The notes below the pieces were generated by a model, which searched no databases, was not told the DNA's origin, and saw nothing but the letters and a program-made list of their open reading frames with translations. The translations under genes and the position numbers were made by a program. From Bacillota bacterium (GTDB taxonomy: Bacteria; Bacillota; Dethiobacteria; DTU022), in the NCBI GenBank assembly GCA_029552125.1, contig JAKPEE010000098.1, positions 1 to 42,696 on the forward strand: a stretch of DNA of 42,696 nt, written 5' to 3'. This document shows positions 29,236 to 39,281 of this stretch, piece after piece (positions within the stretch are counted from its first letter, which is position 1; every line of letters starts with the position of its first letter).

Positions 29236-30597
29236 TTGGATCTGGCCACTACCATAAAAAAGCTGCTGCTGAAAAAATGGCTGAAAATTTTGCTGCTAGC
29301 CTGCGGCACCGCGTTTCTATTGGCAGCAGTGATCATGCTCTGCGATTTCTGCTATTTTTACTCCCGCACATACCCCGGCCTTTACCTGGAAACCATCGAC
29401 GTGGGAAACATGCGCCTGGAGGAGGTGGAGGCGCTCCTGGATGAAAAGCTCTGGTCCCTGGAGGAGCTGCAGTTCAGCACAGCCGGCGGAGAAAAGATGA
29501 CGCTGTCGCTGTCCGATCTGGGCCTATCCTGGGACAGGCAGGGAACGATGGAAAAAATTTATCGCGCCGGGCGGGGGTGGAAAGGCTATGCGGTGCGCCT
29601 GCACAGCTTGCGCACCGGCAACCCCATAATTGTCAGGGGCGAAATTAAAGTGGACGAGTTGCGCCTGGCCGGGGCCATGGCCGGCCTGGCCAAACAGCTT
29701 TATCACCCGCCGCGGGATGCCTTTTTTGAAGTAGAAGGAGAGACGGTTTCCATCATCCCGGAGCAGGAGGGCCAATACTTGAAAACAGCGGCCCTGCGGG
29801 AACTCATTTTTTATTCTCTCTATGAAGAGGAAAAAGAAATACTCCTCCCGGTGGGAGAGTGGCCGGCGGCACGGACGGCGGCCGACCTGGAAAACTTCGG
29901 CGTCGGAGGGGTCATGGCTTCTTTTTACACTGACGTTGCTGCCGGCAACCCTGATCGCGCCTACAATATTAAGCTGGGCGCTTCTGCCATTAACGCCACT
30001 TTGCTGGCCCCGGGGGAACTCTTTTCCTTCAATGAGGTGGTGGGCGAAACTACCGCCTCCAAAGGGTACCGCTACGCGCCAATAATCGTTGGCGATGAAC
30101 TGGTGCCGGGCCTGGGCGGCGGCCTCTGCCAGGTATCCACAACCCTGTATAATGCCGCGCTTCTGGCCAACCTGGAGATTGTTGAGCGCCACAATCATAG
30201 CATGCGGATATCATACATCCCCCTGGGCCGGGATGCCACTGTAGCTACCGGCAGCCTTGATTTGAAATTCAGAAATAACCGCGACCACTACATCCTCATC
30301 GGGGCGGATCTGAACAACCTCAGGCTCACTTTTCGCATTTTCGGCCCGCCGATGAAAGAAAAGGTAGAAATTATTTCCAGCGGATACCAGCAAATCGCGC
30401 CTCCCATCAACTATGAATACAGCGACGCTCTACCGGCCGGGGTTACTGAAGTGGTCAAGCCCGGCCAAGCAGGCTATTACATAACCACCTGGCGCGTGGT
30501 CTACCTTGATGATCAGGAAATATCACGTGAAATGCTCTTCCGGGATTATTACAGGCCCACGCCCGCGCTGCACCGGGTGGGAACAGGGGACGATTGA
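29236..30597 (+). CDS. VanW family protein
   Basis: NIKLGASAINATLLAPGELFSFNEVVGETTASKGYRYAPIIVGDELVPGLGGGLCQVSTTLYNAALLANLEIVERHNHS; TTG start. Confidence 0.93.
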   Translation: MDLATTIKKLLLKKWLKILLLACGTAFLLAAVIMLCDFCYFYSRTYPGLYLETIDVGNMRLEEVEALLDEKLWSLEELQFSTAGGEKMTLSLSDLGLSWDRQGTMEKIYRAGRGWKGYAVRLHSLRTGNPIIVRGEIKVDELRLAGAMAGLAKQLYHPPRDAFFEVEGETVSIIPEQEGQYLKTAALRELIFYSLYEEEKEILLPVGEWPAARTAADLENFGVGGVMASFYTDVAAGNPDRAYNIKLGASAINATLLAPGELFSFNEVVGETTASKGYRYAPIIVGDELVPGLGGGLCQVSTTLYNAALLANLEIVERHNHSMRISYIPLGRDATVATGSLDLKFRNNRDHYILIGADLNNLRLTFRIFGPPMKEKVEIISSGYQQIAPPINYEYSDALPAGVTEVVKPGQAGYYITTWRVVYLDDQEISREMLFRDYYRPTPALHRVGTGDD

Positions 30598-30666
30598 TCG
30601 TAAAAGCATTATTTTGTACGCGCCGGAAAAACTAACATAAACAGCACAGGAGGAGGTGGCATCCCG

Positions 30667-30858
30667 GTGGATGTTCGCATGCGCGTCGAAAAATGCATTG
30701 AGAGCTTTCGCCGTTCGGCTGATGAGTTGCGCGCGGCGGCCCAGGAAACAGAAAACAGCCAGGCGAAAAATGCCTTTATCGAGTCGGCCCAGAAGGTGGA
30801 AGACTGCATCCAGCAATGCCAGACTGCGATTAACCAGTTTAAGGACAAGTCCTGGTGA
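30667..30858 (+). CDS. Small DUF1657-like protein
   Basis: 63 aa VDVRMRVEKCIESFRRSADELRAAAQETENSQAKNAFIESAQKVEDCIQQCQTAI; GTG start after ggaggagg. Confidence 0.65.
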   Translation: MDVRMRVEKCIESFRRSADELRAAAQETENSQAKNAFIESAQKVEDCIQQCQTAINQFKDKSW

Positions 30859-30867
30859 ACAAGAAAC

Positions 30868-30895
30868 CAGAATTCAGTATCCAGTATCCAGATTA
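30868..30895. repeat. Degenerate heptad array CAGAATT CAGTATC CAGTATC CAGATTA
   Basis: Four consecutive 7-mers starting with CAG. Confidence 0.6.
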
Positions 30896-30926
30896 AAAAC
30901 AAAACTGTTTTGTTCTGTTGCGTCAA

Positions 30927-30953
30927 GACGGTGCCAAAGCACCGTCTTTTTTT
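30927..30953 (+). terminator. Terminator GACGGTGC-CAAA-GCACCGTC-TTTTTTT
   Basis: Perfect 8-bp stem plus T7. Confidence 0.9.
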
Positions 30954-31022
30954 GGCAAGAAGCTTTTTCTGCGCCTGGAGGAGTAGTTTTTATTAGTAAG
31001 TTAGGATATAATAGGATTCAGT

Positions 31023-31064
31023 GATTCTGACTTCTGGATTCTGAATTCCCAATTCCGAATCCCG
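31023..31064. repeat. Degenerate heptad array GATTCTG ACTTCTG GATTCTG AATTCCC AATTCCG AATCCCG
   Basis: Six consecutive 7-mers; reverse complement matches the CAGAATT-type unit of 30868-30895. Confidence 0.6.
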
Positions 31065-31124
31065 CACTATTTTAACATAGTAGCTGTATGCCAGAATAAA
31101 TAAGACAGTATGGGAGTGCTGCTT

Positions 31125-32561
31125 ATGGTACGTGTTCGTTTTGCGCCCAGCCCCACGGGGGAGCTGCATATCGGTGGAGCCCGCACCGCTTTGTTTAATT
31201 ATTTATTTGCCCGGGCCAACGGCGGCGTGTTTATACTCAGGATCGATGACACCGACCAGGAGCGCTCCCGCCCCGAATATGCCGCCGCCTTGCTGGAAGC
31301 ACTGAAGTGGCTGGGGCTGGAATGGGATGAAGGGCCGTATTATCAATCAGAGCGTTTAAGTGAATATAACCGTGAAGCAGCCCGCCTGCTGGAAGAAGGG
31401 AAAGCGTACCATTGTTATTGCTCGCCTGAAGAGATCCAGGAGCAGCGAGAGGCGGCCCGCAAGGCCGGGAAACTGTTTCGCTACCCCGGCACCTGCCGGG
31501 ACCTGTCGAAAGATGAAATGAGAGCCTACGAAGCGGAGGGGCGGTCTCCGGTGATCCGCCTGCGCGTCCCTGAAAGCGGCAACACAGTTGTTGACGATAT
31601 TATCCGCGGCCGGGTAACCTTTGCCAACGACACCCTGGACGACTATATCATTGTCAAATCAAACGGGCTCCCCACCTACAACTTTGCCAGCGTGGTCGAT
31701 GACCACCTGCTGGGGATAACCCATGTCATCAGGGCCGAAGAGCATCTTTCCAATACACCGCGCCAGTTGCTATGCGCCACCGCCCTGGGTTACCGCCCGC
31801 CGCGCTACGCCCACGTACCCATGATCCTGGCCCCGGATCGCAGCAAATTGAGCAAACGCCACGGCGCCACCTCGGTGGAAGAATTCTGCTCCCAGGGTTA
31901 TCTGCCCGAAGCCCTGGTCAACTATATGGCCTTGCTGGGCTGGTCGCCGGGTGAAGAGGAGATCTTGACCCTGGAAGAGATGGCCAAAATATTTTCACTG
32001 GACCGAATCGGCAAAAACGCAGCCATTTACGACACGGTTAAATTAACCTGGATGAACGGGCACTATCTGATGCAGGCAGACCCGGCTTACCTCAGCAAGA
32101 CGGCCTACCCCTTCTTCGAGGCGGAAGGGTTGCTGAAAGGCCCTTTAAACGAATCTCAATGGGATTATTTAAGAACAGTTATTGAAACGGTGCGGGAACG
32201 GGTTAAAACGCTGGCCGAGCTGCCGGAAGCATGCCGCTATTTTTACGAAGATGACTTCGACTATGACCCCAAAGGGGTGCAAAAAATATTTACCAAAGAT
32301 GATACCGCTTTGCTGCTGCGCCAGGCGGCGGCCAGGCTCGCCCAGCTTGACCGCTTTGACTATGCTTCTACGGAAAGGGCCTACCACGATTTAAGTGCAG
32401 CGCTGGAGATATCCGCCGTTAAATTGATCCAGCCGTCCCGCCTGGCCCTGACCGGCCGGACCGGAGGACCGGAGCTATTTGCGATCATGGCTGTCCTGGG
32501 GAAAGAAAAAACTCTGCAGCGCCTGGAGAAAGCCGCCGCCTACATTGAAGCGGCACTATGA
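31125..32561 (+). CDS. gltX: Glutamyl-tRNA synthetase
   Basis: VRVRFAPSPTGELHIGGARTALFNYLFAR; DRSKLSKRHGATSVEEF (KMSKS-type). Confidence 0.97.
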   Translation: MVRVRFAPSPTGELHIGGARTALFNYLFARANGGVFILRIDDTDQERSRPEYAAALLEALKWLGLEWDEGPYYQSERLSEYNREAARLLEEGKAYHCYCSPEEIQEQREAARKAGKLFRYPGTCRDLSKDEMRAYEAEGRSPVIRLRVPESGNTVVDDIIRGRVTFANDTLDDYIIVKSNGLPTYNFASVVDDHLLGITHVIRAEEHLSNTPRQLLCATALGYRPPRYAHVPMILAPDRSKLSKRHGATSVEEFCSQGYLPEALVNYMALLGWSPGEEEILTLEEMAKIFSLDRIGKNAAIYDTVKLTWMNGHYLMQADPAYLSKTAYPFFEAEGLLKGPLNESQWDYLRTVIETVRERVKTLAELPEACRYFYEDDFDYDPKGVQKIFTKDDTALLLRQAAARLAQLDRFDYASTERAYHDLSAALEISAVKLIQPSRLALTGRTGGPELFAIMAVLGKEKTLQRLEKAAAYIEAAL

Positions 32562-39090: not shown

Positions 39091-39164
39091 TAACCTTCTC
39101 CTCTCCCTATACAGAAATTAGTAGCCGGGAGAACCGGGAAAGCAGGCTTTGGGCGGTCTAAAGG

Positions 39165-39192
39165 AATCCAGAATTCAGAACCCATAAGCCAG
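39165..39192. repeat. Degenerate heptad array AATCCAG AATTCAG AACCCAT AAGCCAG
   Basis: Four 7-mers sharing AAnnCAG, related to arrays at 30868 and 31023. Confidence 0.55.
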
Positions 39193-39218
39193 AGAAAAAA
39201 AAAGTCAGGACTCCAATA

Positions 39219-39256
39219 CCCCCACCCTGCCCTCGCGGGGGAGGGCAGGGTGGGGG
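39219..39256. repeat. 16-bp perfect inverted repeat CCCCCACCCTGCCCTC-gcgggg-GAGGGCAGGGTGGGGG
   Basis: Perfect arms with 6-nt loop and no T-tract. Confidence 0.85.
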
Positions 39257-39281
39257 GCGCATGGATTAACTTCCCCAAAGT

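Follow-up and report, generated by a model that had tools for sequence, protein, structure and literature searches.

Among the closest described relatives of the repeats considered here are the GGGAATC heptads of Xanthomonas, which occur as intergenic runs of mostly about four units (Rehm et al., 2015; PMC4692102). They form convergent inverted pairs (70 in Xcc and 75 in Xac), and near an ORF they lie on the coding strand when downstream of it and on the non-coding strand when upstream; their length and sequence differ among related species, and quadruplexes have been considered for them (PMC4692102). Xanthomonas loci built of GGGATTT, GGGATTC or GGGAATC units hold 6–18 copies and vary among strains (PMC8002079). 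In Geobacter metallireducens, 'class 3' sites comprise five tandem heptads with the consensus MTYCTGA and make up eight predicted site pairs; they were read as sites, unique to that genome, for a global regulator (IHF/HU), whose binding was proposed (PMC2700814). The GGGGAYT repeats of Nostoc, by comparison, are rarely paired (PMC4692102).

Heptad arrays in the gltX spacer

The window, the whole 42,696-nt stretch of DNA that was analysed (contig C15 of the draft genome G000, 2.56 Mb in size), carries two degenerate heptad arrays in the spacer between a small gene and gltX, and a third array of the same family farther along (Table 1). The letters that the first-pass annotation had read at 30868–30895 and 31023–31064 are exactly those present, and one extra degenerate unit, AAGAAAC, carries array 1 upstream to 30861, so that it starts immediately 3' of the stop codon of the small gene. 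Array 2 points towards array 1, which makes the two a convergent pair, and the terminator that had been placed between them corresponds to a hairpin with a U-rich tail. No other match to the interior of the pair occurs in the DNA sampled from this species and its sister species, G001. Array 2 lies about 10 bp downstream of a TATAAT sequence and would thus occupy the 5' end of the gltX leader if a promoter is located there, as we infer; a sigma-70 scan did not find a full site. The small gene has no Pfam match; its 3' end can be recognised in further genera of the same family. An Rfam search of window positions 30000–32000 gave no credible match.

Table 1. Features of the gltX spacer and the third array, in window coordinates
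Feature	Position	Strand	Sequence or remark
Small upstream gene	30656..30859	+	3' end conserved in related genera
Heptad array 1	30861..30895	purine strand on +	AAGAAAC CAGAATT CAGTATC CAGTATC CAGATTA
Interior of the pair	30896..31022		
Terminator-like hairpin	30925..30948	+	AAGACGGTGCC AAAG CACCGTCTT, then T-run
TATAAT	31007..31012	+	within box GGATATAATAGG, kept in sister species
Heptad array 2	31023..31064	purine strand on -	CGGGATT CGGAATT GGGAATT CAGAATC CAGAAGT CAGAATC
gltX, glutamyl-tRNA synthetase	31110..32561	+	tRNA-synt_1c, E 6e-110
Third array, same family	39162..39194	+	AGGAATC CAGAATT CAGAACC CATAAGC

The third array has a counterpart at the orthologous site in the sister species (L170). 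Just after it, at about 39215–39260, lies a CCC...GGG palindrome rich in GC. Many spacers in both species contain palindromes of this sort, which may be related to the CCYTC class 4 sites in G. metallireducens.

The arrays are real and not an artefact, and their periodicity of seven exceeds chance. The strict 7-bp phase that the first-pass annotation described is borne out by Tandem Repeats Finder, which reports period 7 at both gltX-spacer arrays and at the third site (39164–39193), and arrays 1 and 2 are the only lag-7 runs of at least 17/21 in the whole window. With up to two mismatches, the motif has 81 matches in the genome as against none for the reversed control pattern, and a first-order Markov control gave no arrays in 211 kb; the annotation had proposed enrichment over background as its own test, and this is the enrichment found (arrays were counted by pattern search over the genome and about 0.38 Mb of sampled stretches). 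A scan blind to the unit returned 34 lag-7 self-match runs in the sampled intergenic DNA of G000 and 36 in that of G001, most of these stretches having been selected for carrying CAG arrays, compared with 0–3 runs at any other lag from 4 to 15 except 14, a harmonic of 7. At a looser cut-off, 17 of 42 and 21 of 47 lag-7 runs in the two species fall outside the ascertained CAG motif, and several unit types share the period within one genome (CAGAATY, CAGTATY, CAGGAKA, RAGAGGT and others). The lag scan, the empty reversed and Markov controls and the intergenic placement together rule out chance or coding as the origin, in line with the earlier view that coding does not explain the pattern.

Direction, arms and change between species

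An arm consists of about 3–7 imperfect heptads, and its purine-rich strand runs 5' to 3' from the gene edge into the spacer, with the second arm doing likewise from the other edge. The outer unit is often GGGAATY and the inner ones are CAGAATY, CAGAAKY, CAGTATY or CAGGAKA. The arrays are intergenic; nearly all of the few scored as coding fall within doubtful short ORFs or at the 5' end of an ORF. The inverted pairing first noticed at gltX proves to be a general rule of the family, in G000 as in other phyla, whether or not a terminator lies inside. All 54 of 54 adjacent pairs of opposite orientation face inward: among neighbours less than 300 bp apart in the window's genus, 15 are (+,-) and none (-,+); an acidobacterium genome with heptad loci, G074, has 18 inward pairs and no outward one among the loci listed; and other phyla contribute 21 inward and none outward. 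Of the 27 single arrays of G000 in tandem gene contexts, 24 point inward (p=5e-5), a count that relies on simple ORF calls, by which sense arrays beside starts could be hidden; the pair counts are unaffected. In G074 the arms are mostly 9–40 bp apart and make near-perfect hairpins, and interiors in the window's genus more commonly span 85–153 bp. The inverted geometry permits a hairpin between facing arms, which forms well where interiors are short and poorly in the window's genome. In the same acidobacterium (L191–L210), a second heptad type, GACGAAT / CAATCGT, sometimes adjoins the outside of the CAGAATC hairpins.

Arms that belong to one pair show no more likeness than arms drawn from different loci of the same genome. 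Within-pair identity is 0.813 in G074 as against 0.824 for shuffled partners, and 0.614 as against 0.622 in the window's genus, and a repeat of the comparison in the best register gave the same answer. This argues that the arms arise independently, being neither inverted duplicates of one another nor held in complementarity, and it rules out both a palindrome made by inverted duplication and a stem kept by compensatory change. Inside one array, on the other hand, units share a flavour in both G000 and G001, being alike at position 4 more often than expected in G000 (82 against 41.6). In G074 identical adjacent units are rarer than chance (16 against 30.6) and C and T alternate, for which slippage loss of perfect repeats is one possibility. 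The interiors of six pairs had no other match in the sampled DNA save for one orthologous site.

Comparison of the two sister species suggests how the arrays change. At gltX, where the flanking genes are about 90% identical, G001 keeps the GGATATAATAGG box and has heptads at both array positions, but the units are of the CAGGATA type and the second array has the opposite orientation; CAGAATT arrays are absent from the gltX spacer of more distant relatives. Exact differences of a single 7-nt unit between the species occur at C34:2027 and in C49, an array has been gained or lost (L184/L159), and in one clear case a new inward pair is nested inside an older one (L152/L050). An excess of 7-nt indels inside arrays did not reach significance in the small sample from the sister species only (Fisher p=0.25). 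A switch of unit at a fixed site is also seen in valS of two Phycisphaerales relatives, with CAGAATT heptads in one (G080) and CTCGAAA heptads in the other (G414). One spacer with a heptad pair (L174:1970–2347) is 96% identical to its orthologue in L158, with flanking genes at 88–89%; a conserved RNA or a recent exchange is possible there.

Beyond the genus, a 27-base form of the motif has matches in 56 stretches from the GTDB collection, where motif length alone would lead one to expect, by estimate, far below one match. The taxa extend from Clostridia and Peptococcaceae to Acidobacteria, Phycisphaerales, Chlamydiae, Hydrogenedentes, Verrucomicrobia and Proteobacteria, with the qualification that most GTDB records are metagenome-assembled and some taxon labels may be wrong. 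All 28 of the 28 genomes reached in this way have at least one motif match, with a maximum of 141 and none for the reversed control, and the exact motif is present in 7 of 300 genomes of the window's phylum. At eight loci in other phyla (L065, L077, L083, L084, L090, L102, L104 and L109), CAGAATY arrays lie in sense inside protein genes, including valS, gltX and cysteine desulfurase, and encode peptides such as GNSEFRIQNSE or RIQNPES. These arrays may have entered the proteins by in-frame insertion or by overwriting: the valS site is a loop of variable length in relatives, and PDB alignments show small gaps only. Viral contigs gave no match to the 27-mer and nine loci with a 24-mer, and carriage by phages was rejected on this small number. 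In Peptococcaceae bacterium BRH_c4a there is a dispersed element in which a terminator, AAAAAACGCCCTGACGGGCGCTT, is followed by a heptad array and then by a strongly conserved stretch (roughly 100–200 nt), with at least nine copies in the genome (L069, L076, L085, L086, L091, L094, L100, L101 and L118).

Origin of the arrays

The reading that fits best, to which we give a probability of about one half, is that the gltX arrays are one locus of a dispersed intergenic class of convergent heptad pairs that turns over in place in a slippage-like manner. Such arrays would arise and change as heptads are gained, lost and rewritten locally and in a direction-sensitive way, the source of which may be replication or repair slippage with rapid drift rather than transposition of a fixed element, and they probably need neither a dedicated protein nor an essential regulatory role. 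In favour of turnover in place, the array positions in the gltX spacer are kept while the units and one orientation differ, and the likeness of units at position 4 fits the prediction of local duplication. Against slippage, the shortage of identical neighbours in G074 is the opposite of what fresh slippage leaves, and slippage leaves unexplained both the inward facing and the recurrence of the CAGAATY unit in many phyla. One option compatible with the nested pair is that spacers would break or stall near the middle and have both 3' ends extended. It is tempting to go further and imagine a taxonomically scattered process, somewhat telomerase-like, that adds purine heptads directionally to DNA 3' ends at broken or stalled spacers, to both ends of the gap independently and before they are rejoined. 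This would yield the inward direction, the independent arms, the unique filler and the nested pairs all at once, but as no enzyme or template was identified, several unit types occur per genome and there is a single clear nested case, we regard directional extension, like the telomerase-like process itself, as very improbable.

Other readings give the arrays a function or a means of travel. Degenerate heptad runs might be binding sites of a global regulator or nucleoid protein, along the lines of the IHF/HU idea, with the pair bracketing the spacer. Independent arms with a shared grammar suit degenerate recognition, the arrays are placed at gene edges, and the published paired MTYCTGA sites of G. 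metallireducens share the unit (PMC2700814); but several unit types coexist in one genome, the distribution within the phylum is very patchy, arrays sit inside protein genes in some genomes, and a sequence-specific regulator should not tolerate the switch of unit type and orientation in the orthologous gltX spacer, all of which makes this reading unlikely. That same reversed array in the sister species counts against an RNA-level hairpin, in which the transcribed arms would base-pair and so influence termination, mRNA stability or the gltX leader. The window pair does fold well as RNA (z -4.0, to which the enclosed terminator contributes), G074 pairs make long stems, and the order of purine arm and then pyrimidine arm is equal on either strand. 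Yet pairing is not maintained by compensation, since within-pair complementarity does not exceed that of shuffled partners, register identity is just 0.61 in the window's genus, and G074 pairs occur in divergent spacers too, so that an RNA hairpin is distinctly unlikely as the explanation.

We consider it improbable that the pair and its spacer moved together as a non-autonomous mobile element resembling a REPIN or a MITE. REPINs do occur as scattered inverted pairs whose spacers vary (PMC3116915), and filled and emptier sites are found between the sister species, their edges having diverged too far to show target-site duplications, but a conserved interior is absent and the arms are not copies of each other. 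Moreover, only one of 30 Y1 transposase (PF01797) loci has an array nearby, PF01797 was not found in G072 and G070 despite their 141 and 62 motif matches, and viral matches are few. A MITE or other fixed mobile element was set aside on the six interiors compared, and membership of the REPIN/RAYT system fails on the transposase association and on the arm comparison, in which conserved arm sequence with compensatory changes is absent. Finally, G-quadruplex elements, as put forward for the Xanthomonas repeats, are hardly credible here: the geometry and the outer unit GGGAATY are shared (PMC4692102), but none of 46 G000 arrays has at least four GGG tracts and the + strand of both window arrays is free of GGG runs, so the quadruplex reading does not extend to this variant.

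Relation to described heptad repeats

The interest of these arrays lies in their geometry and their recurrence across phyla, and not in a demonstrated function at gltX. The inward direction, the independence of the arms, the switching of units at fixed sites and the presence of one unit in many phyla are measurable rules, and they open to testing a long-standing question, namely why seven-base repeats are favoured in bacterial genomes.

The analogy with cyanobacterial STRRs drawn by the first-pass annotation holds in so far as the family consists of degenerate tandem heptanucleotides of the STRR kind, whose head-to-tail 7-bp units exceed chance and are scattered through intergenic DNA, but closer published relatives are found in Xanthomonas and G. 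metallireducens. Like the arrays here, STRRs and the TAACTGA repeats of Beggiatoaceae (PMC4679880) are scattered intergenic heptads with a patchy occurrence in distant bacteria; their units differ, and inverted pairing is absent from their described features. REPINs (PMC3116915) have inverted short arms, variable spacers, hairpin potential and an extragenic location in common with our pairs, but they lack heptad periodicity, whereas the arrays here lack both an arm sequence copied between loci and an association with RAYTs. The G. metallireducens consensus MTYCTGA is the reverse strand of TCAGRAK, the unit seen here, a match of unit and pairing by published consensus only; unlike class 3, the TCAGRAK unit is present in many phyla, and positions, units and orientation change between sister species. 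Facing arrays on opposite strands are shared with Xanthomonas, the strand placement of GGGAATC repeats near ORFs is the inward rule of the arrays here, and the outer unit is often GGGAATY. The arrays here are more degenerate and belong to another phylum, and their inner CAGAATY-type units have no G-tracts, so that, in contrast to Xanthomonas, a quadruplex is not possible. That G-poor heptads adopt the same geometry means that quadruplexes, as considered for Xanthomonas, do not account for the family as a whole, and the heptad pairs described here are a G-poor variant of a described kind of repeat.
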